DNA of 64,000 nucleotides from contig NZ_CACSIK010000001.1 of the NCBI RefSeq assembly GCF_902705875.1, forward strand, positions 2,661,166 through 2,725,165. The letters run 5' to 3'. Both the position numbers and the translations under genes were made by a program. The DNA comes from Zhongshania aliphaticivorans (lineage in GTDB: Bacteria > Pseudomonadota > Gammaproteobacteria > Pseudomonadales > Spongiibacteraceae). This document shows positions 15,997 to 61,843 of this stretch, in pieces (position 1 is the first letter of the stretch; every line of letters begins with the position of its first letter). The notes beneath the pieces were generated by a model, which saw only the letters and a program-made list of their open reading frames with translations, ran no database searches and was not told the origin of the DNA.

Positions 15997-16025
15997 CTGT
16001 ATTACAATAAATCCATTGTAATCAG
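15997..16025. promoter_or_regulatory. Operator-like site of the TTGTAWTACAA type
   Basis: CTGTATTACAA at 15997-16007 matches the recurring palindrome TTGTAWTACAA at 10 of 11 positions. A half-like copy, TTGTAATCAGG, follows at 16016 (TTGTAA half-site kept). The site is about 80 bases upstream of the crotonase-crotonase-Crp operon and is therefore placed as a binding site for the same unknown regulator as the perfect copies elsewhere. Confidence 0.5.
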
Positions 16026-16110
16026 GGTCTACACAACCGTCAAACCAAATTCTAAGCCGATCTCCCCCACCTAATTACAATGCCTTTACAGAACTCTGAC
16101 CTCCAAGCCT

Positions 16111-16557
16111 TCAAAGTCGTGTCCCGCGCAACGCTTTGTTCGCTATTAGTTTATTTGAGTCGTCACTTTTAATCGCCCCAATTGCAGCTAAGTTCATTAA
16201 ACGACGAAATCTCGGGCACTCTAAGTGGCTAGGTGCTTTACAAGCTGCAGCATGCTGAAGCCCATCACGCATTGCGGTTAACTTTTGAATTGTTTTATCC
16301 AGCTCTCCGGCTTTGCTTAGCAACAAGTCTCGATCAATTTCAGGGTTATCTTCAGTCCCTAATATTCCAGCTATTTCTTCCAGAGAAAATCCTGCAACGC
16401 GACCCAATGCAATCAGCGCAAGACGCTCGATTATACCGGCCCCAAAAACTCGGCGAATTCCTTGCCTGCCCACAGAATGTATTAAGCCTTTTTCCTCATA
16501 AAAGCGTAACGTTGACGCAGGAACACCAGATTGTTTCGCCACCTGAGAAATATCCAT
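16111..16557 (-). CDS. MerR-family transcriptional regulator
   Basis: A 148-residue MerR protein. The N-terminal winged helix starts ISQVAKQSGVPASTLRFYEE, then the dimerisation helix (about residues 75-110), then a short tail with two cysteines in ACKAPSHLECPRFRRL. That cysteine pair is not the four-cysteine iron-sulphur cluster of SoxR. The gene is divergent from a DUF2938 membrane protein, and between them lies a MerR-type promoter with a 19-bp spacer. AAGGTG precedes the ATG. The signal could be thiol-reactive or a metal, but this is inference. Confidence 0.87.
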   Translation of the reverse strand: MDISQVAKQSGVPASTLRFYEEKGLIHSVGRQGIRRVFGAGIIERLALIALGRVAGFSLEEIAGILGTEDNPEIDRDLLLSKAGELDKTIQKLTAMRDGLQHAAACKAPSHLECPRFRRLMNLAAIGAIKSDDSNKLIANKALRGTRL

Positions 16558-16565
16558 AACGCACC

Positions 16566-16596
16566 TTGACTTAAAGTTGACTTGAGGTTGTACGCT
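16566..16596 (+). promoter_or_regulatory. MerR-type promoter with SoxR-box-like dyad
   Basis: TTGACT (16566-16571) and TACGCT (16591-16596) are separated by 19 bases, the long spacing typical of promoters that MerR proteins untwist. The spacer region contains CTTAAAGTTGACTTGAGG (16570-16587), which matches the classical soxS SoxR box CCTCAAGTTAACTTGAGG at 15 of 18 positions. It would drive the DUF2938 gene and lies next to the start of the MerR gene. Confidence 0.6.
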
Positions 16597-16634
16597 AGCA
16601 CCACTTTAAAATTAATACTAGTTATGGTGCATTT

Positions 16635-17126
16635 ATGAACGAACTGATCTTTACAATTTTAATCGGAATTGGCGCAACGGCCGGGATGGATTTATGGTCT
16701 TTATTAAGGAAACAGATGTTTAACATTCCACCCACCAATTGGGGAATGGTGGGACGCTGGATCGCCTACATGAAATACGGGCAATTTCACCACACGAACA
16801 TTGCAGCATCGGACCCTTTTCGTGGTGAACAGCTCATTGGATGGACGGCGCATTATGCAATAGGCATAGCTTATGCCACCCTATTAGTCATCACTGGTGG
16901 GACGGAGTGGATACACAACCCATCGATTGGCCCTGCTCTCACAGTGGGCATTGCCACCGTTGTCGCTCCCTTCTTTATATTGCAGCCAGGAATGGGAGCA
17001 GGGTTTGCTGCGTGTCGGACGCCCAAGCCAAACTCAGTTAGACTACAAAGCGTCATCAACCATGCCGTATTTGGCTTTGGCTTATTCCTCTCAGCGCTGA
17101 TAATCAAATGTACTTTTTCGCAATAA
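16635..17126 (+). CDS. DUF2938 family membrane protein
   Basis: A 163-residue protein with about four membrane segments (residues 1-20, 75-95, 100-125 and 140-160). It carries the family features GIGATAGMDLWSLLRKQ near the start, GWTAHYAIGIAYA in the middle and PGMGAGFAACRTPKP, LQSVINHAVFGFGL near the end. These fit DUF2938, a family of small membrane proteins without established function that is often found beside MerR-type regulators. An alternative in-frame reading from an ATG at 16624 is not supported by a better ribosome binding site. Expression is probably controlled by the divergent MerR protein. Confidence 0.75.
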   Translation: MNELIFTILIGIGATAGMDLWSLLRKQMFNIPPTNWGMVGRWIAYMKYGQFHHTNIAASDPFRGEQLIGWTAHYAIGIAYATLLVITGGTEWIHNPSIGPALTVGIATVVAPFFILQPGMGAGFAACRTPKPNSVRLQSVINHAVFGFGLFLSALIIKCTFSQ

Positions 17127-17296
17127 TTATTGCACTCAGAATGGTGCGCGAAAAAATCTACAGGTAACGGATGGCAAACACGACGAAGATGCGCTCCGAC
17201 TTAAAAAGCCTTAAGTATGATGCGCTGCCATTGGTGTCAACTTGAGCCCATCCTCAGTTGTTCTGAAAGATATGCGCACGATTTATAAATACCATT

Positions 17297-17986
17297 TTAT
17301 GCAGCAACACCAAATATTCGGCCTACGCCTGCGGTTAGCACCATGGCGAGCGCACCCCAGAAAGTAACTCTAACGGCACCCACAATAATTGACGCGCCGC
17401 CAACACGCGCTGCAATACCGCCAAGTAGAGCGAGAAAAACCAGTGAAGAAATGGCAACAACAGAAATAAGTTGATTACCTGGCACAACCCACGCTACAAG
17501 CAAGGGAAGTGCAGCACCCACTGTAAACGTACCTGCCGACGAAAACGCAGCTTGAATGGGCTGAGGGCTTGCATTCTCCGATATACCTATATCATCTCTT
17601 GCATGCGCACCAAGTGCATCGTGAGCCATTAGCTGCTCGGCAACTTGCTTAGCCAGAACAGCATCCAGCCCCCGGCCTTCGTATATGTCAGCGAGTTCCT
17701 CTTTTTCAGCATCTATATTTTGTTCAAGCGATTTTTTCTCAATTTCGAGGTCTGCATTTTCAGTATCTAACTGCGAACTAACCGACACGTATTCACCCGC
17801 GGCCATAGACATCGCACCGGCAACTAGTCCAGCCACGCCTGCGAGAAGAATCCCTTCATGAGCAGTACTCGCAGCGGCCACACCAATAATAAGACTTGCT
17901 GTAGATACAATTCCGTCGTTTGCACCGAGTACTGCTGCTCGTAACCAACCTGCGCGATTTGATCGATGAATTTCACTATGAATCAT
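17297..17986 (-). CDS. VIT/CCC1-family membrane transporter
   Basis: A 229-residue protein of the VIT1/CCC1 iron and manganese transporter family. Two membrane segments near the N-terminus (GANDGIVSTASLIIGVAAAS and the next helix, with AGAMSMAAGEYVSVSSQLD) are the family signature. An acidic helical region (about residues 75-130, rich in Glu and Asp) is the metal-binding insert, and three further membrane helices follow. Plant and yeast members load iron or manganese into vacuoles; bacterial members probably export or detoxify the metal. Its start overlaps the stop of the upstream GFA gene by 4 bases (ATGA), so the two are translationally coupled. Confidence 0.85.
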   Translation of the reverse strand: MIHSEIHRSNRAGWLRAAVLGANDGIVSTASLIIGVAAASTAHEGILLAGVAGLVAGAMSMAAGEYVSVSSQLDTENADLEIEKKSLEQNIDAEKEELADIYEGRGLDAVLAKQVAEQLMAHDALGAHARDDIGISENASPQPIQAAFSSAGTFTVGAALPLLVAWVVPGNQLISVVAISSLVFLALLGGIAARVGGASIIVGAVRVTFWGALAMVLTAGVGRIFGVAA

Positions 17987-18387
17987 AAGCTTTCCGGAAA
18001 AGCACTAAACTGAGGAATACCTTCATAGGGCTCACACCAATGCGCCTTTGATTCCACATTAATGTGAGCAACAGGCTTCAAATCCAACGCTGTATCCACG
18101 GTTGATAATGAAACGCAAAAAAAGCTTTTTCTATCTGGGGAATAGTTCATTAATCTTGTTCCACATTCAGAACAAAATGCTCGATAACCACCAGCCCCAC
18201 TCTGATGCTCTTTTAAGCACCCATTTTCATCAATGAGCTTAAATGTTGAAGCATCAACTATTGCCATGGTTGCATAGTCCGCGCCATGGGCTTTTCTACA
18301 GAACTTACAATGACAGTTCAGCACATTATCTGGATTGATTTCGACTTGATAGCCAATCTTTCCACAAAGACAACTTCCCTCAACCAT
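17983..18387 (-). CDS. GFA family protein (Zn-binding, Gfa/Mss4-like)
   Basis: A 134-residue protein with the cysteine pattern of the GFA family (glutathione-dependent formaldehyde-activating enzyme-like): SCLCGKIGYQ near the start, NCHCKFCRKAHG around residues 27-38, and FCSECGTRL around 72-80. These are paired structural and exchangeable zinc sites. Most bacterial members have no proven activity, and the formaldehyde-glutathione role is established only for some. It overlaps the VIT gene by 4 bases, so both belong to one small operon. Confidence 0.83.
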   Translation of the reverse strand: MVEGSCLCGKIGYQVEINPDNVLNCHCKFCRKAHGADYATMAIVDASTFKLIDENGCLKEHQSGAGGYRAFCSECGTRLMNYSPDRKSFFCVSLSTVDTALDLKPVAHINVESKAHWCEPYEGIPQFSAFPESL

Positions 18388-18523
18388 GACATATTCCTAG
18401 ATTAGACTTTGAAAGTAATCAGTTAACTGCCCGCACAACCCCATGATATCGGGTTAAAAGGCAGCTAAAATTAGCGACAAAGGAGCAATAACCAGCTGGC
18501 TATTACTCCTTTCACGTGAATTG

Positions 18524-18916: not shown

Positions 18917-19220
18917 TGTTATTCTCAATTAAAATCGACATGGAAGCCTTTTGAAGCAGCTAACAGCTTAATATGAAAACTGAAGCTTATATCATATAAG
19001 GCTTCCTATCTAAGACACATAATTCGGAAGGGTATTAACCCCCTAAATATTTCATAGCTTGAGCGTGTGTCGTGGAATCATCTGTCGATGTTAGCAAGAC
19101 TAGCTCCCCCCTATGTTTTCTTAGCCCCCATCTCTTGATCGTAGACCCACATCAATATAAATCACACAACCATACCTCTTACCGGAAATACATCGATCAC
19201 AAGCACATCCTGCAACACAA
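18917..19220. other. Intergenic region
   Basis: About 300 AT-rich bases between the small membrane protein and the EamA transporter. I see no open frame, repeat or clear terminator in it. It must hold the promoter of the small membrane protein on the minus strand. Confidence 0.3.
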
Positions 19221-20180: not shown

Positions 20181-20351
20181 ATGCGGCTACTCGGATTTCC
20201 AAAAAAACAAGCTAACAAAACTAACTCTTGTGTATAGCGGCTTGGTATTGCGCCCAAACCTACTGACGGGCTAACAAGAAAACACAAGCTCACTTCACTG
20301 CTGCCGATCAAATTGCATGGTCAATATTAAAATCCCCTTGAATATTTTGTC

Positions 20352-20372
20352 TTACAATATTACATTGTAATA
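20352..20372. promoter_or_regulatory. Variant palindrome between EamA and the ligase operon
   Basis: TTACAAT (20352-20358) and ATTGTAA (20364-20370) form an inverted repeat around ATTAC. Overlapping it, TATTACATTGTAATA (20358-20372) is a 15-bp palindrome. These are the same TTGTAA/TTACAA half-sites as in the recurring ATTGTAWTACAAT element but in a different order. The site ends 35 bases before the ligase start. Confidence 0.5.
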
Positions 20373-20407
20373 AATTCAGTAAAGACAAAGCGATAAATTG
20401 GTACAGT

Positions 20408-22006
20408 ATGAACAATAATAACGCGCCCTCTCACGACGCAACAGACATAGATTTTAGCTGGCAGCCTCCAGCCACATTCAATTTTGCTAGCGACGTGGTC
20501 GATCGTTGGGCCGCAGACCCCAGCAAATTGGCTCTGATTGCCGAAAATGCTAAGGGCGCACAGCAAACCTATAGCTTTGCCGAGGTTGCCAAGCAATCTT
20601 GTCAGTTGGCTAATTTACTAAAGGACAGCGGAATTGTTCAGGGCGACCGCGTCATTGTTATGCTTCCACGCATTCCACAATGGCAAATTGCGATGGTCGC
20701 GGTATTACGAATGGGTGCCATCCCTATTCCCTGCATTACAATGCTGACCACCAAGGACCTCGACTATCGCGCCAGCCACGCTGGCGTTAAGGGGGTAATT
20801 ACCACCTCAGCCGAATGCGCAAAATTTGACGATATTAGCGGTATCCCGACCCGAATCTGCGTAGGTGATGCACCCGCCGGCTGGACCAGCCTGAGCGAAG
20901 CCAAGGCACTGCCAGCGAATTTTCCCGCCGCCGTCGTCGGCATTAATGATGCGGCGATTATTTATTACACATCGGGATCTACCGGCTCCCCTAAGGGCGT
21001 TACTCACGCCTCACGCGCACTATGGGCGTGGGAAAATTCAGCCGAACACTGGTTACAACTAAACCCAAGTGACCGTATCTGGTGTACCGCAGATACCGGC
21101 TGGTCTAAAGCTGGCACCAGTATTCTTTTTGGGCCATGGAGTCGCGGCAGCGCAGTATTATTTTACGATGGCCCTTTTGAACCGGCTAAGCGCTTTGATT
21201 TACTGTCTCGTCACCAAGTCACCTGCTTTTGTGCGGCGGCAACCGAGCTGCGCCAGCTGGTACTAGAAGACGCATCGGGCTATGACTTAAGCCATTTACG
21301 CCAGACCGTATCCGCCGGCGAATCGGTTAACCCAGAAATTCTGACCCGCTGGAAAACCTTAACCGGCACCGACGTGCTTGATGGCTACGGTCAAACCGAA
21401 ACCCTTATGACGATCACCAATCGCCCCGGCCGGCCGATAAAAGCGGGTTCAATGGGCCGGCCACTGCCGGGCATCAATATCGCCGTACGCACCAGCGACG
21501 GCGAAGCAAAACCAATTTCTGCTACCGGCGAATTGCTGATCGGCCTACCCAATCCTCAGGTCATGCTGAGCTACTGGCAAGACCCCGAGCGCACCGCCGG
21601 AACCCGCATAGAACTCAACGGTAAAGAGTGGTTTGCCACCGGAGACAATGTAGAAATCGACAGTGATGGCTATGTGTTTTTTACCGGCCGCGCCGACGAC
21701 ATTATCAACTCATCCGGCTATCGCATTGGCCCCCAGGAAGTTGAAAACGCCCTGAGCAGTCATCCCGCGGTTAAAGAATGCGCCGTGGTCGGCATCCCCG
21801 ATGAAGAACGGGGTGAATTAGTCAAAGCTTGGGTCACGCTAAAGAATGGCACAGAGGGTGATGAAGCCCTCATCAAAGAACTTCAAAATCATGTGAAAGC
21901 AAGCACCGCGCCGTATAAATACCCACGCCGCATTGCCTTCACCGACGAGCTGCCCAAAACAGTCACCGGCAAAATTCGCAGAAACATTCTCCGCGAACAA
22001 AATTAA
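20408..22006 (+). CDS. Acyl-CoA synthetase (AMP-forming, medium-chain type)
   Basis: A 532-residue ligase that activates a carboxylic acid to its CoA thioester through an acyl-adenylate. The phosphate loop is YYTSGSTGSPKG (about 187-198), followed by DGYGQTE (near 325) and TGDNVEIDSDGYVFFTGRAD with the hinge region (near 415-430). The C-terminal catalytic lysine is Lys522 in KTVTGKIRRN. The sequence style fits the ACSM / medium-chain acyl-CoA synthetase group. It is the first gene of a co-directional set with an SDR, an acyl-CoA dehydrogenase and an iron-type dehydrogenase, comparable in kind to LvaE of the levulinate operon. An operator-like palindrome lies just upstream. Confidence 0.9.
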   Translation: MNNNNAPSHDATDIDFSWQPPATFNFASDVVDRWAADPSKLALIAENAKGAQQTYSFAEVAKQSCQLANLLKDSGIVQGDRVIVMLPRIPQWQIAMVAVLRMGAIPIPCITMLTTKDLDYRASHAGVKGVITTSAECAKFDDISGIPTRICVGDAPAGWTSLSEAKALPANFPAAVVGINDAAIIYYTSGSTGSPKGVTHASRALWAWENSAEHWLQLNPSDRIWCTADTGWSKAGTSILFGPWSRGSAVLFYDGPFEPAKRFDLLSRHQVTCFCAAATELRQLVLEDASGYDLSHLRQTVSAGESVNPEILTRWKTLTGTDVLDGYGQTETLMTITNRPGRPIKAGSMGRPLPGINIAVRTSDGEAKPISATGELLIGLPNPQVMLSYWQDPERTAGTRIELNGKEWFATGDNVEIDSDGYVFFTGRADDIINSSGYRIGPQEVENALSSHPAVKECAVVGIPDEERGELVKAWVTLKNGTEGDEALIKELQNHVKASTAPYKYPRRIAFTDELPKTVTGKIRRNILREQN

Positions 22007-22051
22007 TACACGCCCTAGCCACAGCGCTCCACTAAAAAGCGGATTAATACA

Positions 22052-22792
22052 ATGACAGTAGAAATAAGCCTACAGGGCAAAACGGCCTTAGTTGCTGGAG
22101 GTTCCAGCGGGATTGGCCTAGGCATCGCTCACAAACTGCTAGACGCTGGCGCGACCGTACATATTACCGGCACCCGCGCCACCGCAGCGGACTACGACGA
22201 ACAAGCTCTAGACGGTCTCACATTCCACTCCCTAGACGTGGCAGATAGCGCCGCGGTAGATGCCTTTGCAGCGAGCTTTCAGGCCTTAGACATTTTGGTG
22301 TCTAGCGTCGGGATTGTCGCCTATGGCGGTACGGAGTATCAGATTGAGACCTTCCGCAAGGTGATGGATGTCAATCTAAACGGCGTTATGCACCTGTGCA
22401 CCAGTTTTCGCGACTTATTGCAGGGCAATGATGAGCGGGAAGGCACCATCGTCTTGGTCGGTTCAACATCCAGCTTTATCGCCACCCCCGGCCAGCCCGC
22501 TTACAGCGCCAGTAAAGGCGCTCTGTTAACCCTGACTAAATCCCTGGCCCAAGCTTGGGCTCGCAAGGGCATTCGGGTTAATGGCATTGCCCCGGGTTTT
22601 GTTAAAACCAAGCTGACCCAACGCAGCTGGCAAGATGAAAATGTCTACAAAGAATCGTCTGCACGAATTCCCCTTAAGCGCTGGGGCGAACCCGAGGAAA
22701 TGGGTAATGCCACCCTCTTTCTCGCCTCGCCAATGGCGTCATATGTCACAGGTCAGATGCTGCTAGTCGATGGCGGCATCACCCTAATGTAA
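22052..22792 (+). CDS. SDR-family oxidoreductase
   Basis: A 246-residue classical short-chain dehydrogenase. The cofactor motif is AGGSSGIGLGIAH (about 15-27), the middle motif is SSVGIVA in place of NNAG, the catalytic serine is in VGSTSSF, and the YSASK pair follows near 152-156. The C-terminal LLVDGGI is typical of FabG-like enzymes. It would interconvert a hydroxy and a keto group on a CoA-linked or free substrate with NAD(P)H. It lies 45 bases after the ligase and 18 bases before the acyl-CoA dehydrogenase. By analogy with LvaD it could reduce a 4-keto acyl-CoA, though a 3-hydroxyacyl-CoA role is equally possible. Confidence 0.88.
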   Translation: MTVEISLQGKTALVAGGSSGIGLGIAHKLLDAGATVHITGTRATAADYDEQALDGLTFHSLDVADSAAVDAFAASFQALDILVSSVGIVAYGGTEYQIETFRKVMDVNLNGVMHLCTSFRDLLQGNDEREGTIVLVGSTSSFIATPGQPAYSASKGALLTLTKSLAQAWARKGIRVNGIAPGFVKTKLTQRSWQDENVYKESSARIPLKRWGEPEEMGNATLFLASPMASYVTGQMLLVDGGITLM

Positions 22793-22810
22793 CGGTACAG
22801 GAACAGCAAA

Positions 22811-23986
22811 ATGATTAATTTTGATTTAACAGAAGATCAAATCGAACTCCAACTACGTGTTAAACAGTTTGTGGTCGACAAGGTCATTCCCTTTGAGAAA
22901 GACCCGCGCTTGACCTCCCATGGGCCAACCGACGAGCTGCGTGTAGAGCTAAATGATTTGGCCAGAGAAGCTGGCTTGTTTGCGCCCCACGTACCCACAG
23001 AATGGGGTGGAATGGGGTTAGACCATACAACCCTCGCGGTGGTATTTGATGCCGCAGGTTACTCCCCCTTAGGACCGATTGCACTGCACTGCGCGGCGCC
23101 CGATGAAGCCAATATGAACCTGCTGCATCGCGTTGCAACCCAGGCGCAAAAAGAGCGCTGGTTAAAGCCTTTTGCCGCGGGTGAAATTCGTTCAAACTTT
23201 TGTATGACCGAACCCGGCGGTGCCGGCGCTGACCCATCGGGCATGCTGACCAAAGCCCACTACGACGGCGATGATTTCATTGTTAGCGGCGTAAAGTGGC
23301 TTATTACTGGCGCTAAAGGCTCGTCTTTCACCATTATTTTCTGCGACGTACAGGCTGACGGCGATAAGCCCGGCGGGCCAACGATGTTAATCTCTGACAT
23401 GGATCAGCCCGGTATTAAAATCAGCCGTGAGCTAGATACTATCGACAATAGCTTCACCGGTGGTCACGCCGAAGTCACTTTTGAAAACCTCCGTATTCCC
23501 CCCGAGAATGTTCTTGGCGAAGTCGGCGAAGGTTTCCGCTATGTGCAAGTACGGCTTGCTCCTGCGCGACTCACCCACTGTATGCGGTGGCTTGGTGCGG
23601 CGCGCCGAGTACATGAAATTGCCTGCGACTACGCACGTAATCGCCACGCGTTTGGCAAGCCCATTGGCGAGCACGAAGGCATTGGTTTTATGCTTGCAGA
23701 CAATGAGATCGACATCCAGCAAAGCCAATTAATGATTTGGTGGACGGCCGCGGCGCTAGACAAAGGCGAAAAAGGTCGTCATGAATCCAGCGTCACCAAA
23801 ACAGCTGTGTCCGAGGCCGTATTCCGAGTCGCCGATCGCTGCGTACAAATCTTGGGCGGCTCAGGTATTACCCAAGATACGGTAGTAGAATGGGTCTTCC
23901 GCGAAGCCCGTGCCTTCCGTATTTACGATGGCCCGTCTGAAGTACACCGCTGGGCAATTGCCAAACGGATACTCAGAAACGGATAA
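22811..23986 (+). CDS. Acyl-CoA dehydrogenase (ACAD11-like active site)
   Basis: A 391-residue FAD-dependent acyl-CoA dehydrogenase with the N-terminal helical domain, the beta-barrel motif FCMTEPGGAGADPS (about residues 137-150) and the C-terminal helical domain. The usual catalytic base segment YEGT is YDGPSEVHR here, with Asp where medium-chain acyl-CoA dehydrogenase has Glu376. The same DGPxEVH form is found in ACAD10/ACAD11 and the related bacterial enzymes that work with an APH-type kinase on 4-hydroxyacyl-CoA. Such a kinase lies further along (26930-27976). AGGA precedes the start. It is the third gene of the ligase-led operon. Confidence 0.9.
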   Translation: MINFDLTEDQIELQLRVKQFVVDKVIPFEKDPRLTSHGPTDELRVELNDLAREAGLFAPHVPTEWGGMGLDHTTLAVVFDAAGYSPLGPIALHCAAPDEANMNLLHRVATQAQKERWLKPFAAGEIRSNFCMTEPGGAGADPSGMLTKAHYDGDDFIVSGVKWLITGAKGSSFTIIFCDVQADGDKPGGPTMLISDMDQPGIKISRELDTIDNSFTGGHAEVTFENLRIPPENVLGEVGEGFRYVQVRLAPARLTHCMRWLGAARRVHEIACDYARNRHAFGKPIGEHEGIGFMLADNEIDIQQSQLMIWWTAAALDKGEKGRHESSVTKTAVSEAVFRVADRCVQILGGSGITQDTVVEWVFREARAFRIYDGPSEVHRWAIAKRILRNG

Positions 23987-24035
23987 TCCGACCGGCACTG
24001 AGCACTAAATAAAAAGAGATATCAGGAAACTGACA

Positions 24036-25211
24036 ATGATAAAAAACGGCGAATATTTCTTCCTCGACCAAAAGCGGGTGATCTTTGGACAGGAAGCCGG
24101 CAAGGCCGCCGCCGCAGAGGCAGAGCGGCGAAATGCTAGCCGTGTTCTTGTGGTTTCGTCGCGCTCTATTAATCGACGTCTTGGCGCTACTGAAAGTTTA
24201 CGGGAGCAGCTCGGCGAGCGTTTGATAGATGTTTACGATGAGATTGAGCCTCATGCTCCCTTGGACAGTATTCTGGAGTTGCGCCGGACTCTTGCCAGCG
24301 AGAAGCCTGATCTTATCGTCTCCATTGGCGGCGGCAGCGTCATTGATACGGTAAAGGTCGCCACCCTCGCCGATGCCGCTGATGCGCAAAGCACCGACGA
24401 AATCGCCGCCCTGCGGGTTGCCATGAATGAACACGGTGAGCAGGTGGCACCGTTTACACCCGACGCAATATTACGCCAAGTGGCAATACCAACGACCTTA
24501 TCTGGCGCTGAATTTGGCACCATAGGTGGCGCGGTAGATACCCAGCGCAATATCAAAGACATCTACACCCATCCACAGATGTGCTCCGATAGTATTATTT
24601 ACGATGCCGAGCTATGCAGACTAACCCCAAATGAACTGTGGATAGCCACTGCTATGCGCGCCGTGGATCACGCCGTAGAAACCATTTTATCGCTTGGCGC
24701 CACGCCGTTTACCGATGGCCCAGCCCTGCATGCCTTGCGCCTGTTTGGGCAGTCTCTTCAAGCTGGCGACCAGAAAACCATGAGCTTAGAGGCTATTCAA
24801 AATTGCCAGTTTGCGGTTTGGGCTGCCACCATCGGCCTGATGCGCGCACCCTACGGTGCCAGCCACGGTATTGGCCATCAAGTCGGCGCGGTAGCGGGGG
24901 TACAACATGGCATTTGTTCCTGCGCCATGCTGCCGTCCGTATTGCGGTATAACGCTGAAATTTCTGGCGAGCGCGACGCGTGGATTGCCGAAGCCTTGGG
25001 TGCTCCGCAAAGCAGTGCTGCAGACGCCGTACTTGCCCTGATAAGACGTTTGGGCTTACCGGACAGCCTCAAGGCCGCTGGCGCTAAGAAAGACCAATTT
25101 GAACAAATGGCCAAGGCGGCACTGCCCAGCTATTTTGTTCGCAATAACCCCCGACCCATTACCGATGCCAGCCAAATAATGGACATCCTAGAAATGGCTT
25201 GGGAAACCTAG
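24036..25211 (+). CDS. Iron-containing alcohol dehydrogenase family protein
   Basis: A 391-residue group III (iron-type) dehydrogenase. The NAD-binding motif is SIGGGSVIDTVKVA (about residues 96-109). Likely metal ligands lie in MRAVDHAVE and GASHGIGHQVGAVAGVQHG, the usual Asp/His/His/His positions. Members include maleylacetate reductase, 4-hydroxybutyrate dehydrogenase and hydroxyacid-oxoacid transhydrogenase. In this operon with a CoA ligase and an acyl-CoA dehydrogenase, oxidation or reduction of a hydroxy/keto acid is the natural suggestion. AGGA precedes the ATG by 8 bases, and a T-tailed terminator follows. Confidence 0.85.
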   Translation: MIKNGEYFFLDQKRVIFGQEAGKAAAAEAERRNASRVLVVSSRSINRRLGATESLREQLGERLIDVYDEIEPHAPLDSILELRRTLASEKPDLIVSIGGGSVIDTVKVATLADAADAQSTDEIAALRVAMNEHGEQVAPFTPDAILRQVAIPTTLSGAEFGTIGGAVDTQRNIKDIYTHPQMCSDSIIYDAELCRLTPNELWIATAMRAVDHAVETILSLGATPFTDGPALHALRLFGQSLQAGDQKTMSLEAIQNCQFAVWAATIGLMRAPYGASHGIGHQVGAVAGVQHGICSCAMLPSVLRYNAEISGERDAWIAEALGAPQSSAADAVLALIRRLGLPDSLKAAGAKKDQFEQMAKAALPSYFVRNNPRPITDASQIMDILEMAWET

Positions 25212-25277
25212 CAATACTGCGGCAGACGCGAATATCTTAACTTGGCAGCGATATCGCCACGTTAAACTCGCGCACTT

Positions 25278-25299
25278 GGCGTCCTTTGGCGCCTTTTTT
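25278..25299 (+). terminator. Intrinsic terminator after the dehydrogenase
   Basis: GGCGTCC, a TTT loop and GGCGCC form a short GC-rich hairpin with one bulge, followed directly by six T residues. It lies 66 bases after the iron-type dehydrogenase and before the transporter, so it should separate the two transcriptionally. Confidence 0.65.
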
Positions 25300-25362
25300 A
25301 TTCCCGTAGACGAAGCCCACTGACAGGCGCTAGGATTAAGGCGAATAGCTGAGGTTATTATA

Positions 25363-26712
25363 ATGAAAATCCCCTCTTGGTTGATTAAGCCCTTCACCAC
25401 GTTTGTAGAGCGCTACTACCCAGACCCCTTTGTGTTTGCGGTACTCATGTCATTACTGACCTTTTGCTTGGCTGTCGCTGTTACCGACGCAACCCCTGCA
25501 GTTGCATTACAAGCCTGGGGCGACGGCTTGCCAAGCCTGCTATCTTTTACCGCACAATTGAGTATCACCCTGTTAGGCGCCCACGCCCTTGCCCATACCG
25601 ACCGCGTGCAGCGCGTGCTCGCCTTCATTGGCGCACTGCCCCGCAGCGCAGCCGCCGCCTACGCCCTAGTTGCGCTAACAGCAGGTATAGGGTCATTGAT
25701 TGCATGGTCTCTGGGCTTGGTTGCCGGCGCGACAATTGCCCGCCAAGTCGCCATCCAGTGTAATAAGCGCGGCATTCGTGTGCACTACCCCTTACTGGTC
25801 GCCTCTGCCTATGCAGGCTTCGTTGTTTGGCACATGGGCTACTCGGCCTCCGCCGCCTTATTTGTGGCAACACCGGGCCATTCCTTAGAAGCAGAAATGG
25901 GCATCTTGCCAATTACCGAAACAATATTCACAGCAGAAAATGGCATTCTTGTCCTGATCACCCTTGCCGCAATCGCCGTGCTCTGCCCAATGATGCGACC
26001 AACAGAAGATGAAATCCTAGAAATTGACCCCGCCTTATTAAAGGATTCAAATCAACCAGAACAAGTCAGTAACAACATCGAAACCCCCGCTCAAAAACTT
26101 GAAAATATGCGCGCCTTATCATCAATACTGGGGCTCGCCTTATTACTTTATATTGCTTATAGCTATTACCAAAAAGGCTTTTTCTTAACGCTGGATATTG
26201 TTAATTGGTCTTTTGTTGGCGCTGGATTACTACTCGCCCGCTCACCACTGCATTACGTTCGCTTAATAGAAAATGCCAGCGCCACCGTTGGCCCCATTAT
26301 TCTGCAATACCCCTTTTACGCCGGTATTCTCGGTATGATGATAGGCACAGGGCTGGTCACCGTTATCTCAGACTGGTTTGTGTCCGCAGCCACCGCAGAA
26401 ACACTTGGCATTGGCGCCTTTTTGTCTGCAGGCCTAGTTAATCTTTTTATTCCTTCCGGCGGCGGCCAGTGGGCAGTACAGGGCCCAATCTTTATCGAGG
26501 CGGCCAATCAATTACAGGTAGATCACTCTGTTATTGTTCTCGCCATCGCCTATGGCGATCAATGGACCAACATGATCCAGCCCTTTTGGACAATCCCCTT
26601 GTTGGCGATTGCCGGTCTTCATCTGCGCCAAATCATGGCGTATACCGTGATGATATTTATCGTTACCGGCGTCATCTTTATTAGTGGCCTATTATTAATG
26701 GGCGCGGGCTAA
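25363..26712 (+). CDS. AtoE-type short-chain fatty acid transporter
   Basis: A 449-residue membrane protein with about eleven hydrophobic helices, similar in layout to AtoE, the short-chain fatty acid permease of the Escherichia coli ato operon. It has the family start FERYYPDPFVFAVLMSLLTF-like region, the GIGSLIAWSLGLVAGA segment and the conserved late region NLFIPSGGGQWAVQGP followed by YGDQWTNMIQPFWTIP. It probably imports the short acid used by the preceding ligase operon, or a related keto acid. GAGG precedes the ATG. Confidence 0.87.
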   Translation: MKIPSWLIKPFTTFVERYYPDPFVFAVLMSLLTFCLAVAVTDATPAVALQAWGDGLPSLLSFTAQLSITLLGAHALAHTDRVQRVLAFIGALPRSAAAAYALVALTAGIGSLIAWSLGLVAGATIARQVAIQCNKRGIRVHYPLLVASAYAGFVVWHMGYSASAALFVATPGHSLEAEMGILPITETIFTAENGILVLITLAAIAVLCPMMRPTEDEILEIDPALLKDSNQPEQVSNNIETPAQKLENMRALSSILGLALLLYIAYSYYQKGFFLTLDIVNWSFVGAGLLLARSPLHYVRLIENASATVGPIILQYPFYAGILGMMIGTGLVTVISDWFVSAATAETLGIGAFLSAGLVNLFIPSGGGQWAVQGPIFIEAANQLQVDHSVIVLAIAYGDQWTNMIQPFWTIPLLAIAGLHLRQIMAYTVMIFIVTGVIFISGLLLMGAG

Positions 26713-26854
26713 CACCCCGCTCTGCAGTTTTTAATTGCGCGGCTTAATGCAGCCGTTTTACTGCATCCTCCCATTGCCCATCAAGCATATTAAACAACCC
26801 CAAATACTATGAGCTAGTCTAATCTAATACTTTATTTTCTTGAATTTATGTATT

Positions 26855-26867
26855 ATTGTAATACAAT
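26855..26867. promoter_or_regulatory. Perfect ATTGTAWTACAAT operator-like site
   Basis: ATTGTAATACAAT is one of five perfect copies of this 13-bp palindrome in the window. It lies 63 bases before the kinase start. The form tTGTnnnACAa agrees with the general FadR-subfamily GntR consensus (TnGTnnnACnA), but TetR-type binding cannot be excluded. Confidence 0.7.
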
Positions 26868-26929
26868 ATAAAAATAAACAAGAGGTAAGTGCCTCTCGAG
26901 TACATCAGGCAACAGACCCGGAGCGCAAT

Positions 26930-27976
26930 TTGAACACCATTAGTGAAGCAGTTGACCTAAATGCATTAACACACTGGATGGACTCCCAAAATTTGGGCAG
27001 CGGAGACATTAGCAATGCGCACCTGCTAACCGGTGGTACGCAAAATATACTATTGCAATTTGATCGAGCGGGCCGCTCCTATGTTCTTCGTCGCCCGCCA
27101 GTCCACACCCGAGTAAATTCCAACAAAACCATGCAGAGAGAGGCGAAAGTACTCTCTGCTCTGGCCGGCTCCAAGGTGCCGCATCCGGGATTTATCGCCG
27201 CCTGCGAGGATACCGAGGTACTGGGTGCCAATTTCTATTTAATGGAACCCATCATCGGGTTTAATGTGCTCAATAGCTTGCCGGAACTACACAAGTCCAG
27301 CGAAGAAATGCAACGCAGAATGGCCTTCTCACATATTGAGGCCCTAACCGCACTCGGCGAGGTTGACTACAAAGCGGTTGGCCTAGAGGACTTCGGCAAA
27401 ATTGAAGGTTACCTAACAAGACAGGCGCCGCGCTGGCTAGACCAATTAGAGCGCTACAAGAAATACCCCGAATGGCCCGGCCTCGGCAATGCCGAGAGCA
27501 TTGATACTATCGCTCGCTGGTTGGATGACAACTGCCCTTCAACCTTCGAACCCGGCGTACTTCATGGCGATGCTCATTTCGGCAATGTCATGTTCAAGTT
27601 TGACAGCGGCGAAGTCGCGGCTTTAATTGACTGGGAACTTGCCACCATCGGCGACCCACTCATCGACCTTGGTTGGATCATCGCTACTTGGCCAGAGCCA
27701 GACGGCACAGACACACTGGTTCTGGAAGGCGCAGACTGGGATGTGCGGCCAAGTATTGAAGAGTTGATCGAACACTATGGCAAACATTCACACCGTGACC
27801 TGAGCAATATCACTTGGTACGGTGTTTTGGGCTGTTTCAAACTGGCCATCATATTGGAAGGCACTTACGCACGATACTGCGCCGGCAAAGCGCCCAAAGA
27901 CGTGGCCGAGCGGCTGCACGACTCTGCGCTCAGACTCATCGCCCGCGCGTTAAAATTAATCGGCGAATCGAAATAG
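26930..27976 (+). CDS. APH-type phosphotransferase (ACAD11/LvaA-like kinase)
   Basis: A 348-residue member of the aminoglycoside phosphotransferase-fold family of the kind that accompanies acyl-CoA dehydrogenases. The catalytic loop is VLHGDAHFGNVMF, and the metal-binding segment is ALIDWELATIGDPLIDLGW. The N-terminal nucleotide-binding part includes GGTQNILLQF. In mammalian ACAD10/11 this domain is fused to the dehydrogenase, and in Pseudomonas LvaA it phosphorylates a 4-hydroxyacyl-CoA. The TTG at 26930 is chosen because GGAG lies 6 bases upstream; the frame is open to a TTG at 26840, but that reading runs through the operator site. It is followed by a VOC gene after 54 bases. Confidence 0.85.
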   Translation: MNTISEAVDLNALTHWMDSQNLGSGDISNAHLLTGGTQNILLQFDRAGRSYVLRRPPVHTRVNSNKTMQREAKVLSALAGSKVPHPGFIAACEDTEVLGANFYLMEPIIGFNVLNSLPELHKSSEEMQRRMAFSHIEALTALGEVDYKAVGLEDFGKIEGYLTRQAPRWLDQLERYKKYPEWPGLGNAESIDTIARWLDDNCPSTFEPGVLHGDAHFGNVMFKFDSGEVAALIDWELATIGDPLIDLGWIIATWPEPDGTDTLVLEGADWDVRPSIEELIEHYGKHSHRDLSNITWYGVLGCFKLAIILEGTYARYCAGKAPKDVAERLHDSALRLIARALKLIGESK

Positions 27977-31862: not shown

Positions 31863-31875
31863 ATTGTATTACATT
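31863..31875. promoter_or_regulatory. Near-perfect operator in a divergent promoter
   Basis: ATTGTATTACATT differs from the recurring palindrome ATTGTAWTACAAT at a single position (TTACAT for TTACAA). It sits 92 bases from the acyltransferase start and 146 bases from the ligase start, so it could control both directions. Confidence 0.6.
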
Positions 31876-37040: not shown

Positions 37041-38012
37041 TTAGGCGATTTTAGACTGCAAGGATTGTTTGGCTTGTTCAAACTCAGCTGACAATCTTGC
37101 CACCAAGTCTGCGGCCTTAACCACCTTCTTCACAGGACCTATACCCTGTCCTGCACCCCAGATATTTTTCCAGGCTTTTACATCGTCGCCGGTATTACTG
37201 AGCTTCGCTAATTGGGAAGGGTCACCGTTCTCTAAGGTCGCAGGATCAACGCCAGCAGCAACAATAGATGGCAGCAAGTAATTGCCATGGACACCCGAAA
37301 ACGCACTGGTATAGAAAATATCATCCGCGCCAGACTCAGTAATCATCTGCTTATACTCGTCAACCGCGTTCGCCTCTTCGGTCGCGATAAAAGCCGAGCC
37401 CATATAGGCGAGGTCTGCACCCATGGCCAAGGCGCCCAGAATCGCAGGGCCTGTCGACATAGAGCCGCTTAACAGCAGTGGGCCATCAAACCATTCACGA
37501 ATCTCTTGTACCAGGGCAAACGGCGAAATCGTACCGGCATGGCCACCCGCACCAGCGGCAACGGCAATAATGCCATCGGCGCCTTTTTGCACGGCCTTTT
37601 TAGCAAATTTATTGTTGATCACATCATGAAAGGTAATACCGCCGTAGCTGTGTACAGCCTCGTTGACGTCTTCCCTTGCACCCAAGGAGGTAATAATAAT
37701 CGGCACCTTATATTTCACACACAGGGCCAAATCTTCCTCAACACGAGGATTGGTTCTATGAACAATTAAATTAACGGCAAAGGGCGCTGCTGGGGCCTCG
37801 GGATGCTCGGCATCATAGGCCGCTAATTCAGCAACAATGTATTGCAGCCACTCTTCAAATGCCTCGGTGGTGCGCGCATTCAGCGAAGGAAAAGAGCCAA
37901 CAATACCCGCCTTACACTGGGCAACGACCAGTTCCTTAGTAGATACAATAAACATCGGTGACGCCACCATGGGTAGGCGTAATTTCTGGGCGAGCAATTC
38001 TGGTAATGCCAT
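37041..38012 (-). CDS. Nitronate monooxygenase / FMN-dependent enoyl reductase-like protein
   Basis: A 323-residue TIM-barrel flavoprotein of the NPD/2-nitropropane dioxygenase family. Typical parts are LRLPMVASPMFIVSTKELV near the start, the phosphate and FMN region VAAGAGGHAGTISPFAL (about 160-176), LLSGSMSTGPAILGALAMGAD (about 188-208) and the C-terminal IWGAGQGIGPV. The GAGGHAG motif marks the nitronate monooxygenase class. Related proteins act on nitroalkanes, propionate-3-nitronate or quinones. GGAG precedes the ATG. A weak operator-like site lies about 100 bases upstream, and the SnoaL-like gene follows. Confidence 0.86.
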   Translation of the reverse strand: MALPELLAQKLRLPMVASPMFIVSTKELVVAQCKAGIVGSFPSLNARTTEAFEEWLQYIVAELAAYDAEHPEAPAAPFAVNLIVHRTNPRVEEDLALCVKYKVPIIITSLGAREDVNEAVHSYGGITFHDVINNKFAKKAVQKGADGIIAVAAGAGGHAGTISPFALVQEIREWFDGPLLLSGSMSTGPAILGALAMGADLAYMGSAFIATEEANAVDEYKQMITESGADDIFYTSAFSGVHGNYLLPSIVAAGVDPATLENGDPSQLAKLSNTGDDVKAWKNIWGAGQGIGPVKKVVKAADLVARLSAEFEQAKQSLQSKIA

Positions 38013-38114
38013 TATTCTAATCTCCGCTTTAATTATGTTTTACATCTTATTAATCGAAATAATTTTCTTTGAGCGCCTAGGATTAATGTAGGCTAGTCCT
38101 CAAGCAGGTTCTTA

Positions 38115-38125
38115 CGGTATTACAA
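38115..38125. promoter_or_regulatory. Weak operator-like site upstream of nitronate monooxygenase
   Basis: CGGTATTACAA matches TTGTAWTACAA at 9 of 11 positions with one half-site intact. It is located about 100 bases upstream of the monooxygenase gene. It is the least certain of the series. Confidence 0.35.
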
Positions 38126-38202
38126 CACTGTTTACAAATTCTCATCAAGAATACCGAGCAGCTCTCTAAACAACCCAGCAACTCGCTCGAAAACCGCTGC
38201 AA

Positions 38203-40308: not shown

Positions 40309-40321
40309 ATTGTATTACAAT
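40309..40321. promoter_or_regulatory. Perfect ATTGTAWTACAAT operator-like site
   Basis: ATTGTATTACAAT lies in the divergent region between the malic enzyme (start 40144) and the first pirin gene (start 40485), at similar distance from both. It is a perfect 13-bp copy of the recurring element. Confidence 0.68.
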
Positions 40322-42389: not shown

Positions 42390-42739
42390 GACAGAATCAT
42401 CAAGCGACTTTAGCGACAAAATCAAAGGAGAAATGCATTGGGGCATTTAAGTTTTCTACAGAACAACTAATGAAAACCTATAATAAATAATCACTTAATC
42501 GCCACCTCTGGCTGATCAATCCACACGAATACTCACTAACTTCCATAAGAAGTAGCCGTGGTTAAAATGCTGTGCATATTGCCCATCACCGTCATATAAC
42601 CGCCTTCTAAAATTTAGCCCTGGCCACGATCGAAGCAAACACTAAATTGTGGAAAACACCTACTTGTATTGTAATACAATATAGCTATACTAAATCTTAG
42701 TAATACAACAATACAATAATCATAAAAGGCTAGCTTAAT
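42390..42739. other. Intergenic region before the second TonB receptor
   Basis: About 350 bases. At 42425-42430 AAGGAG stands before an ATG that opens only four further codons (MHWGI), possibly a leader or a relic. The last 80 bases carry two tandem operator-like sites. No other structure was seen. Confidence 0.4.
42668..42708. promoter_or_regulatory. Tandem operator-like sites upstream of TonB receptor
   Basis: A perfect ATTGTAATACAAT at 42668-42680 is followed by TAGTAATACAA at 42698-42708 (10 of 11 matches). Their centres are 29 bases apart, close to three helical turns, so both would face the same side of the DNA. The receptor starts 31 bases after the second copy. Confidence 0.68.
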
Positions 42740-46451: not shown

Positions 46452-46464
46452 ATTGTAATACAAT
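46452..46464. promoter_or_regulatory. Perfect ATTGTAWTACAAT operator-like site
   Basis: ATTGTAATACAAT lies 27 bases after the MDR gene and about 110 bases before the thiolase/crotonase remnant that precedes the ligase-dehydrogenase-kinase operon. It probably was the operator of the intact operon and may still serve the ligase. Confidence 0.66.
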
Positions 46465-58495: not shown

Positions 58496-58676
58496 ATTGT
58501 TAATTGAATGACTATTTTTAATCTGATTTCACTGCCGCCTCTAAAGAACAATAGCGAAATTTAACAAGAGGCATTCACGAATAATTATTATAATAACGTG
58601 ATACTAGCCTCTTCCATGGGCTTTAAAACAAGCCCTTTTTGCTAATAAACTAACCGAAAATATAATCCAATCGGTT

Positions 58677-58987
<311 letters not shown>

Positions 58988-59354: not shown

Positions 59355-60158
59355 TTAGATATCGCGATAGTGTGGCGCTCGCCGCTCTGTAAATGCAACT
59401 AGCCCTTCTTTGCTATCTTCGGTCAAACTACAGAGAATTTGATTGCGATCCTCTAGTGCGATGGCGGCCTCCAAAGAAGCGGTATCGATATTAACGTTCA
59501 GGGCTTCTTTAGATAGTCGCAACCCCAACGGGGAATTGCTCAACATCAATTTAAGATCTTCTTCAACTGCATTTTCCAACTGACCTAGCTCCACCACTTG
59601 TGACACCAAGCCTATATCGAGCGCACGCTGGGCGAGAATAAACTTACCTGTAAGTATCAGTTCTGCCGCAAGTGATGCACCCACTAAACGCGGCAAGAAA
59701 TAGGATGAACCCATATCACAGCCGCTGAGACCGATACGTATATAGGCACAGTTCATTTTCGCGGTGGTGTCGGCAATACGGATATCCGATGCCAATGCCA
59801 AAGATAGTCCACCCCCGCACGCAGCTCCGCTAATCAAAGAAATTATGGGCTGAGGACAGCGACGCATGGCAATGTAGATTTCAGCAATAGAACGCTGGAA
59901 TGCCAATCCCTGTTGTGGGGAGTTCAGGTCTTGCGTTTCTTCTTCCTTAAGATCCAAGCCGGCACAAAAGGCACGACCTGCGCCTCTTAACACAATGATA
60001 CGACGCTCGGGGCGAGTAGCCATTCCGCGAAAATAATCTCTTAAGGCTGTTACCATCTCTAAATTAAGTGCGTTCAATGAATCAGGACGGTTCAATATTA
60101 CCCAGTCGACTGCGCCTTTCTCTTCAATAATTAAATGTTCGTTTTTTTTATTTTCCAT
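59355..60158 (-). CDS. Crotonase-family protein (paralogue of the 53507 gene)
   Basis: A 267-residue crotonase-fold protein. AFCAGLDLKEEE is the first oxyanion motif. ACGGGLSLALASD has Ser at the Glu144 position, and MNCAYIRIGLSGCDMGSSYFL lacks Glu164 but keeps the Asp in CDMG. The same changes occur in the gene at 53507, and the two proteins share long stretches, including the C-terminal LGLRLSKEALNVNIDTASLE-like region. The ATG at 60158 is chosen with GGGGAG upstream. It stands alone between the 36-bp palindrome upstream and the thiolase relic downstream. Confidence 0.87.
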   Translation of the reverse strand: MENKKNEHLIIEEKGAVDWVILNRPDSLNALNLEMVTALRDYFRGMATRPERRIIVLRGAGRAFCAGLDLKEEETQDLNSPQQGLAFQRSIAEIYIAMRRCPQPIISLISGAACGGGLSLALASDIRIADTTAKMNCAYIRIGLSGCDMGSSYFLPRLVGASLAAELILTGKFILAQRALDIGLVSQVVELGQLENAVEEDLKLMLSNSPLGLRLSKEALNVNIDTASLEAAIALEDRNQILCSLTEDSKEGLVAFTERRAPHYRDI

Positions 60159-60708
60159 CAATTAATCTCCCCTCTGCTCGCTTGAGCAAAATAGTCTACT
60201 AAGAATGCGTAGACCGTTATTAATTAGCCTTTTGGCCAGCCTCAGTCATTTATGATGTTAAGGATTCCTTGTTCAGTATCTATTTTTTATTTTTCAATTT
60301 TCAAACTTGAGTTCTCACCATCAATTGAATAAGCATCAATTAAATCTCAAGAAAAACCGCTAACCTTATTCATTAATTGAGCTCTATTTTCCACATTAAC
60401 AGCATAAAAGAATAGCTAGCTAGGGTCATTAAACTAGTTTAATGACCCTAGCTTTTAAGTGATGGTGATATCTTTTAAGTTCACAATCGATGCGCTAGGG
60501 GTTTACCTCCCCCTGTAGGAAAAATAGTCAACTGAACATTAAGTGTAGAAAATTTAAAAAAATCAGATTTTATTTTTATTCATAACTCACCACTAAAGCC
60601 AAGTATTAGCCTAGCAATGAAGTCATTTTATTTACGAGCATCAATAATATTAGGGAAGTATTTATCAATCAGACCATGCCAATCACGCCTGCCAACCTCC
60701 CTCACGCT
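60159..60708. other. Intergenic region with the long palindrome
   Basis: About 550 AT-rich bases. The only strong element is the 36-bp palindrome at 60418-60453. Open frames here are short, and 60617-60880 is a shadow of the FAD oxidoreductase gene. No remnant could be identified with confidence. Confidence 0.4.
60418..60453. promoter_or_regulatory. 36-bp perfect palindrome with TTAAACTAGTTTAA core (copy 3)
   Basis: The palindrome is perfect over 36 bases: arms AGCTAGGGTCATTAAACT and AGTTTAATGACCCTAGCT. The centre TTAAACTAGTTTAA (60429-60442) equals that at 45137 and 51356. It lies 260 bases upstream of the crotonase gene. The long arms could also form a hairpin in RNA and act as a terminator of the FAD oxidoreductase transcript, whose stop is at 60709. 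Confidence 0.62.
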
Positions 60709-61800
60709 TTATTTGAGACGCAGCTGCTTGCGGTATTTAGGAATAAACAACTCCTTACCTTTTATTTTTGACGTAAAAAAATGGCCCACGGCCATGCCCT
60801 GCTTTCCGAAAGGTAAGGCAGTGGCGCCAAAATTGGAGCCCAGCGGCACAAGAATCGGGGCCACTGGCCAGGGCGTATAGGGTTTTAAACTTGTTACTGA
60901 TTTGCCAGCCAACACGACCTTAATGGTCTTTTCCAACCAAGGCACTTGGCGAGCTAGGGCGACGATGGTCATGGCATCACCCGATGCCAGTACATCACCC
61001 ACCGCAAAGAGATTCGGTCGCAATTGGCTCGGGCGCATCCAACCGTCGTGTTCCACGCGGCCATCGGTAGCGAGCTTCACTCCATCAACTTTGGCCAGCA
61101 ATTCAGACTGTGGACGAGAACCTACCACCGGGAATACAAGATCGGCTTCGATCTGCTGACCGCCTTCTAGAGTGACCTTTCCCGCATAGGGCTCTGAAAG
61201 GGATTGTAAATCCTCCACAGCCTTACCGGTATGTAATTGCACACCCAGTTTGAGCAGGTCTGCCTCCAGCTTCTTCGCCAAGTTCGGTGTGTAAGTGGGA
61301 AATAAGTGATCTTCATTGGTGACCAAATGAATCGCTTTGCTCGGGTATTTACAGGCAATCTCGCCTGCCAGCTCCGTACCCACTGGGCCGGCACCCACAA
61401 TAACCACCGTATTAGCGGCATTAAGAGATGCCGCCACCTCCTTCTGAGCAGCGCGATAGTCATCTAAACCAGCGTCAGAATGCTTAAAAGGTTTGGCATA
61501 CGTTGAGCCTGTGGCCACCACAATAATGTCTGCGGGCAATTCACGACCATCAGTTAGCTCTACGCCATCTTCTTTGATGTTTGCTACCCAACCCTGTACG
61601 ACCTTACCGCGCGCTAATAAGTTGTCGTAAGGCATAATTAACTGATCCAACAACGCCGGCTCGGCAAGCGCTCTGATCGCGGCTGGGGTATGCACAAAGC
61701 AGGACTTGCCGTCGATCATCGTGACAATCGCCACGGAATCCAATTTTTTAGCGAGGTCTATCCCGCCGTGCCCGCCACCGATGATTACGACATTCTTCAT
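60709..61800 (-). CDS. NAD(P)H-quinone oxidoreductase (AIFM2/FSP1-like)
   Basis: A 363-residue FAD-dependent pyridine nucleotide oxidoreductase. The FAD motif is VVIIGGGHGGIDLAKKL at the start, the ATG motif is VVATGSTYAKPF, the NAD(P) motif is VIVGAGPVGTELAGEIA, and the second FAD motif is LFAVGDVLASGD. Size and motif spacing match the AIF/FSP1-like group that reduces quinones; NDH-2 type enzymes are longer. The ATG at 61800 is chosen with GAAGG upstream; the frame is open to 61842, but that reading runs through a perfect operator palindrome. No membrane anchor is visible. Confidence 0.86.
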   Translation of the reverse strand: MKNVVIIGGGHGGIDLAKKLDSVAIVTMIDGKSCFVHTPAAIRALAEPALLDQLIMPYDNLLARGKVVQGWVANIKEDGVELTDGRELPADIIVVATGSTYAKPFKHSDAGLDDYRAAQKEVAASLNAANTVVIVGAGPVGTELAGEIACKYPSKAIHLVTNEDHLFPTYTPNLAKKLEADLLKLGVQLHTGKAVEDLQSLSEPYAGKVTLEGGQQIEADLVFPVVGSRPQSELLAKVDGVKLATDGRVEHDGWMRPSQLRPNLFAVGDVLASGDAMTIVALARQVPWLEKTIKVVLAGKSVTSLKPYTPWPVAPILVPLGSNFGATALPFGKQGMAVGHFFTSKIKGKELFIPKYRKQLRLK

Positions 61801-61830
61801 TAACGATATTACCTTCGTTGCATACACCAA

Positions 61831-61843
61831 ATTGTAATACAAT
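61831..61843. promoter_or_regulatory. Perfect ATTGTAWTACAAT operator-like site
   Basis: ATTGTAATACAAT lies 31 bases upstream of the FAD oxidoreductase start, in a position where binding would block transcription. It is one of five perfect copies. Confidence 0.7.

Follow-up and report, generated by a model that had tools for sequence, protein, structure and literature searches.

The regulons of the FadR-subfamily regulators DgoR, GlcC, LldR, PdhR and ExuR, as outlined in PMC4494728, have in common a protein built of a winged helix and an FCD domain, a GT-N3-AC palindrome as binding site, and extra adjacent half-sites. A system sharing these features is described here for Zhongshania aliphaticivorans. 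It was noticed in a window of 64,000 nucleotides (window base 1 corresponds to C1:2661166; the full genome has 3.98 Mb), for which a preliminary description had reported a dispersed 13-bp palindrome, ATTGTAWTACAAT, and proposed an unrecognised regulon. Sequence comparisons support this interpretation, and most of its testable predictions came out as guessed. The palindrome is very probably the operator of one GntR-FCD factor of the FadR subfamily, encoded at C1:2650557-2651294, that controls an accessory catabolic island. As judged from these comparisons, the system represents a regulon that is new but of a familiar type. It differs from the regulons named above in that about a dozen separate promoters across 74 kb of an accessory island appear to be addressed, and in the lack of orthology to any named group.

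Distribution of the palindrome

The palindrome follows the layout TTGT-N3-ACAA with the half-site ATTGTA, and its DNA form with A:T beside the centre is given as ATTGTAATACAAT. Five exact copies are present in the window, all at the positions previously reported (Table 1). From base composition, 0.0027 exact copies are expected per 64 kb, close to the earlier estimate of about 0.002, and none occurred in 100 order-2 Markov sequences generated from the window's trinucleotides. Among the 15 commonest 13-bp palindromes of the same form in the window, it is the only one occurring more than once. Of the four weaker copies listed in the preliminary description, the one at 31863 was placed correctly (one mismatch), whereas the other three are shifted by one base and start at 15996 (one mismatch), 38114 and 42697 (three mismatches each). 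A one-mismatch site at 283 and a pair at 20346/20364 (two mismatches each) had been overlooked.

Genome-wide, the six exact copies all fall within 69 kb (C1:2653833-2723008), and the reversed pattern, used as control for genome counts, gives none. Eight further sites carry one mismatch; five of them belong to the same cluster, stretching it to 2649334, and three lie elsewhere, one inside an open reading frame (ORF). One 74-kb segment thus contains 6/6 exact sites and 11/14 sites with at most one mismatch, an enrichment with a binomial probability of 3e-17, which has to be read with the segment boundaries in mind, as these were chosen after the sites were known. If the first 90 bp of every mechanically called ORF are disregarded, all 11 cluster sites are intergenic, whereas coding sequence, counted likewise, makes up about 77% of the segment. 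Random scatter within genes, as the outcome that would have spoken against a regulon, was therefore not found for the exact copies. Under this rule, the earlier statement that all sites are intergenic is correct for sites that are exact or have one mismatch, but two exact sites overlap called ORFs beginning at TTG 26840 and TTG 61842. Alignment of orthologues places the kinase start downstream of the first of these sites (Table 1), showing the called ORF 26840-27976 to be over-extended, and moves the start of the FAD oxidoreductase beyond the site at 61831.

Sites with more mismatches do not stand out by number. With up to two mismatches, 85 sites are found in the genome against 68 for the reversed control, and with up to three, 24 matches in the window face an expectation of 20.7. 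Because these counts are close to background, two- and three-mismatch sites were rejected as stand-alone evidence. Among the titles and abstract beginnings of the open-licence literature, no paper naming the regulator or the motif was found; literal motif strings occur in seven papers, in one of them within primers of a Staphylococcus aureus norA promoter construct.

The GntR-FCD regulator and related islands

The regulator had been predicted to lie outside the window and to be of GntR or TetR type. A GntR-FCD gene is indeed located about 10 kb before the window (+ strand, 245 residues, locus L024:9392-10129), and a TetR protein is not needed. The product consists of an N-terminal GntR winged helix (PF00392, E 8e-18, residues 16-78) and a C-terminal FCD domain (PF07729, E 5e-23, residues 103-224). 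The suggested resemblance of the palindrome to the FadR-subfamily consensus was borne out: ATTGTAWTACAAT is an A/T-rich palindrome with TKGT/ACMA boxes and 3 nt separating GT and AC, and would be bound by this protein. None of the NCBIfam models for named FadR-subfamily groups reaches its cut-off (NanR 97/260, PdhR 62/330, LldR 57/311, FadR 21/189 bits; GlcC likewise, with a score below the 97 bits of NanR). In the promoter of gntR (L024:9321-9341), the sequence TGYACTWWTGTWTACWARTRT is common to Z. aliphaticivorans and two of the relatives introduced below (G173 and L028). This sequence does not match the 13-bp operator. It does contain GT-N2-AC, the other spacing of the FadR subfamily, and might be a weak own site of gntR.

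FCD domains of the metal type carry a D/N/E-H-H-H site that is absent from FadR itself. In the regulator the corresponding residues are D152-H156-H200-H222. The three histidines are invariant in 16/16 aligned rows; residue 152 is D in the four close orthologues and E in a clade of more distant homologues (44-47% identity). The spacing (4, 44, 22) is that of the metal site N144-H148-H192-H214 reported for Ps5454 (PDB 3c7j; PMC7674646), although overall similarity to this protein is weak (3c7j, E 3e-4). Because of this conserved spacing, a carboxylate-type ligand on a metal ion is likely. It is supposed that a GntR dimer binds with one winged helix per ATTGTA half-site, and that about a dozen promoters over some 74 kb of the island are occupied in this way. 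The regulator would most likely repress these promoters, because about half of the sites are found 40-80 bp before gene starts (the others at 114-377 bp) and some coincide with -10-like hexamers. Release would follow when the metal-type FCD domain binds a pathway intermediate, either a carboxylate or an acyl-CoA.

Close orthologues of the regulator are rare; the three found share 82-88% identity with it. In the family-level sample (21 genomes), it was found in Z. aliphaticivorans (G000) and in Spongiibacter thalassae KMU-166 (G019; 83% identity), all other genomes giving less than 70 bits. Further orthologues are encoded by a genome from another family (G173; 86%) in the order-level sample of 390 genomes, and by a 12-kb locus of a metagenome-assembled Halioglobus genome (L028; 88%). 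Apart from G000, the 369 genomes drawn at class level contain no further match at E 1e-50.

As predicted, relatives carrying the gntR gene also carry the motif close by. Order-wide, exact copies number six in G000, four in G019 and three in G173, all around gntR, and 16/387 other genomes hold one to three (Fisher 1e-4). These 16 look like background, because the reversed control reaches one copy in 18 of the 390 genomes; when one 3-kb locus was inspected in each, a GntR-like fragment (E<=1e-4) was seen in just 1/16. With up to one mismatch, G019 has ten sites (control 0), seven of which surround its GntR gene (C1:107554-208107), and G173 has four (control 2), three of which surround its own (C1:1492138-1558536). 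Two genus members without a close orthologue (G013 and G017) have one and two sites, equal to their controls. The Halioglobus locus contains sites with 0, 1, 1 and 2 mismatches within 12 kb, among them ATTGTCATACAAT 161 bp before gntR; this site may belong to the divergent neighbour and not to gntR.

The islands of G000, G019 and G173 have many genes in common in rearranged order. In promoter alignments, the core of the palindrome is conserved before the hydrolase (3/3 genomes), the kinase (4/4), the CoA ligase 20408 (4/4) and the FAD oxidoreductase 60709 (4/4), some of the G173 copies differing from the exact motif by three mismatches. The distance from site to start is kept as well (41, 41 and 40 bp for the hydrolase; 75, 75, 77 and 86 bp for the kinase). 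These alignments, and a weight matrix built from 12 G000 sites, were applied after a simple present/absent test at orthologues had proved non-significant. Targets for the matrix were chosen manually on the basis of the G000 sites; for one G019 gene with a mis-called start, the stretch considered was enlarged. At a threshold of at least 10 bits, sites precede 6/9 target versus 3/30 non-target orthologues in G019, and 5/8 versus 5/23 in G173. Target scores exceed those of non-targets with p 0.053 (G019) and 0.019 (G173), 0.008 combined. The expectation that sites are conserved before orthologues thus holds for several of them despite the scrambled gene order, and fails for others. Strong sites are also borne by non-target orthologues, e.g. 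the G019 nitronate monooxygenase, which suggests that sites are gained and lost inside one regulon.

Sister palindromes beside icmF and alternative explanations

The clade with 44-47% identity comprises 12 homologues from families f9, f41 and f46 of the order. A sister palindrome, ATTGTC-N-GACAAT (C:G form ATTGTCCGACAAT), precedes the own gntR gene by 66-110 bp in 11/12 of these loci, exactly in nine and with one mismatch in two. In the remaining locus (L053) none is seen near gntR, its genome having one 2.4 kb off. The preliminary description had anticipated that the promoter of the regulator would itself contain a site, which applies to this sister clade and not to G000, G019 and G173; the Halioglobus site is ambiguous owing to the divergent neighbour. 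Each of the nine sister genomes searched (9/9) has exactly one copy of ATTGTMNKACAAT, six of which stand directly before gntR. The form ATTGTCNGACAAT is present in 111/390 genomes, namely in 12/12 with a sister GntR and in 99/378 others (Fisher 2e-7). Of two homologues with 35% identity, L061 has a one-mismatch C:G form at 122 bp and L062 nothing better than three mismatches.

In 7/7 loci tested (of the 12), the divergent neighbour of the sister gntR encodes a fused B12-dependent acyl-CoA mutase of IcmF build (Table 1); at L099, the called neighbour ORF lies on the wrong strand and no match was obtained. The sister GntR-FCD protein is thus likely to be an icmF regulator. A literature search for isobutyryl-CoA mutase together with GntR retrieved no paper on the pairing, and no name for the GntR system beside icmF is known to us. 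The sister and island systems share the protein family, the palindrome length of 13 bp and the outer bases. They differ in the base pair beside the centre (C:G versus A:T), in a recognition-helix residue (Ser/Thr versus Pro) and in the site at the own promoter (11/12 sister loci).

The A:T operator goes along with the helix sequence VTRPTVREA in 4/4 proteins (Pro53), and the C:G clade with VTR-S/T-T-x-REA in 12/12, residue 53 being Ser in 11 and Thr in one (G131). According to a gapless alignment to the table given in PMC4494728, residue 53 corresponds to position 39 of the helix-turn-helix (HTH) domain (Thr46 of FadR). That study ties HTH position 39 by correlation to site positions 9/11, which flank the centre and are the operator bases that differ between the clades. 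HTH position 28 (Arg35 in FadR) is linked there to G at 6/14 (PMC4494728); the island GntR has Thr42 at this position and its site has T at 6/14. The published trends at position 39 involve Asn and Thr, Thr leaning to A/T without significance (PMC4494728), and because they do not concern Pro, the link between Pro53 and the operator is a positional one. It is a tentative and rather doubtful idea that the exchange of Ser/Thr53 and Pro53 alone switched the inner base pair from C:G to A:T, turning a regulator of icmF/branched-acyl-CoA metabolism into the private master switch of a large catabolic island that passes from one marine family to another with no cross-talk to the older network.

Several observations weigh against the assignment of the palindrome to the GntR-FCD factor and against the parallel drawn with the sister clade. 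The promoter of gntR itself lacks a good site (best matches with 3, 4 and 6 mismatches in G000, G019 and G173). No counterparts were found at orthologues for the sites of the acyltransferase, pirin, malic-enzyme and sulfatase genes, and the present/absent conservation test, with 3/7 in G019 and 3/6 in G173, remained non-significant (Fisher p 0.14 and 0.07). Since the islands harbouring the four close GntR genes are related, the co-occurrence of gene and motif represents few independent events. For the sister palindrome, the reversed control gives 0-7 copies per genome, so that position and not number constitutes the evidence, and in 3/9 genomes (G028, G130, G179) ATTGTMNKACAAT lies 2.3-2.7 kb from gntR. 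As to the recognition helix, G131 combines Thr with C/G, contrary to the published A/T lean, and nine other residues among the first 84 are also fixed differently between the clades. Finally, a MarR protein encoded at window 6445-6939 has orthologues in the G019 and G173 islands (80% and 72%) and is conserved in all three fetched islands, so that its distribution among close relatives matches that of GntR.

Another island regulator, chiefly this MarR protein, is nevertheless an unlikely owner of the palindrome. The three MarR promoters come no closer to the palindrome than 4-5 mismatches, and no conserved palindrome of MarR's own was seen there. MarR matches (E<=1e-30) occur in 14 genomes (371 drawn, those without a match named in part, G019 evidently not among the drawn), none of which belongs to the 12 sister-GntR genomes bearing the sister palindrome, and the 12 genomes of family f28 that have a MarR match give no GntR match at 1e-40. 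The palindrome, moreover, conforms to the GntR FadR-subfamily consensus. For the AraC, MerR and Crp-type genes of the segment, the regions fetched from the two relatives contain no reciprocal match of at least 45%.

The palindrome also reads as TACAAT, a -10-like hexamer, on both strands, and could in principle be a core promoter element and not an operator. Six of the 11 site/orientation cases considered for nine window sites reach at least 9/12 sigma-70 matches, compared with 5% of random windows that were not matched for A+T content, and in five of these six the -10 element lies inside the site or at most 13 bp away. The palindrome's own TACAAT, however, is the -10 in just two of the six (26855 and 40309 +). 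A core element would be expected genome-wide, whereas 6/6 exact copies are confined to one segment, and the sister C:G form retains the palindrome without this -10 likeness, which together make this explanation very improbable. If the motif were a dispersed repeat or a mobile palindrome with no role in regulation, several exact copies in one region would be accounted for, yet this is hardly credible: the flanks of the copies diverge past a few bases, the block conserved between species is the palindrome plus a few adjoining bases, and the site-to-start distances at the hydrolase and the kinase are preserved.

Candidate targets and biological implications

The sites that would be occupied by the island GntR are compiled in Table 1, along with the candidate target operon(s) and the sister loci.

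Table 1. Palindrome sites, candidate target operon(s) and sister gntR loci (window positions unless stated otherwise)
Feature	Position	Gene strand	Context
Site CTTGTAATACAAT, 1 mismatch	C1:2649334, before window		between TonB receptor and a/b hydrolase
Site ATTGTATTACATT, 1 mismatch	C1:2649459, before window		41 bp before a/b hydrolase
Exact site	C1:2653833, before window		78 bp before short-chain dehydrogenase/reductase (SDR) gene, 2.5 kb after gntR
Site ATAGTAATACAAT, 1 mismatch	283..295	-	232 bp before sulfatase gene; absent at G019 orthologue
Site ACTGTATTACAAT, 1 mismatch	15996..16008	-	before crotonase gene 15126-15917
Two weak sites (20346, 20364), 2 mismatches each, 18 bp apart	20346..20376		before CoA ligase 20408
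Candidate target operon(s)	20408..27976	+	CoA ligase, SDR, acyl-CoA dehydrogenase, iron-containing alcohol dehydrogenase (Fe-ADH), TIGR00366-like protein, APH-type kinase
Exact site	26855..26867		75 bp before kinase start TTG 26930; in 4/4 orthologous promoters (0, 1, 0, 2 mismatches)
Site ATTGTATTACATT, 1 mismatch	31863..31875	- / +	between acyltransferase (-) and CoA ligase (+); absent at acyltransferase orthologues
Weak site, 3 mismatches	38114..38126	-	114 bp before nitronate monooxygenase 37041-38012
Exact site	40309..40321	- / +	between malic enzyme (-) and pirin (+); orthologues without it (best 4 and 5 mismatches)
Exact site	42668..42680		72 bp before TonB receptor 42740; exact in G173 too (80 bp)
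Weak second site, 3 mismatches	42697..42709		before same TonB receptor 42740
Exact site	46452..46464		377 bp before CoA ligase 46829; G019 2-mismatch site at 189 bp; G173 none (best 4)
Exact site	61831..61843	-	before FAD oxidoreductase of window 60709; core TATTGT-NN-TACA in 4/4 aligned loci
GntR-FCD / IcmF-type divergent pairs, ATTGTC-N-GACAAT between	L098:10823, L100:10396, L104:9558, L105:9559, L106:10636, L107:9455, L108:1395		

Two of the weak sites deserve comment. The double site before CoA ligase 20408 has the core TGT-M-T-W-ACAATATTAC in common with the other aligned loci (4 loci in total), and more than one dimer may be bound there. The site before the nitronate monooxygenase gains support because an exact site precedes the G019 orthologue by 97 bp; the best match at the G173 orthologue has four mismatches.

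The segment encodes CoA ligases, crotonases, acyl-CoA dehydrogenases, Rieske oxygenases, TonB receptors, pirins and a sulfatase, not all of them fronted by sites, as well as an MhpA-like flavin monooxygenase scoring below its cut-off. The gene order of the candidate target operon(s) is the same in G019, and the kinase matches ACAD11 and chain 9o56. With the levulinate (lva) operon of Pseudomonas putida they share the CoA ligase, SDR, acyl-CoA dehydrogenase and APH-type kinase, the Fe-ADH and the TIGR00366-like protein being additional here. The lva kinases act on 4-hydroxyacyl-CoA, and the lva operon is governed by LvaR, a regulator of unrelated type.

A carboxylic-acid-reductase-like protein of 1174 residues with AMP-binding, PP-binding and NAD_binding_4 domains is encoded at window 8655-12179, with no site of up to two mismatches listed in front. 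An FGE/sulfatase-modifying-factor-like gene (L024:17205-20000 plus window 1-63) adjoins the sulfatase preceded by site 283; owing to this combination, the substrate of the island may carry sulfate esters. Spongiibacteraceae include steroid degraders (PMC5790920). Steroid degradation was considered as role of the island and rejected: the scanned genes, a part of the total covered without a search directed at steroid markers, gave no match readable as KstD or HsaC.

These data assign a predicted regulator, operator and set of target promoters to a previously uncharacterised accessory catabolic island, whose substrate can therefore be sought via inducers of such promoters. Together with the matching change in the recognition helix, the A:T/C:G operator pair constitutes a natural test of DNA choice by GntR proteins. 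The sister GntR-icmF pair yields a second prediction, namely that the sister GntR would control coenzyme-B12 mutase metabolism.

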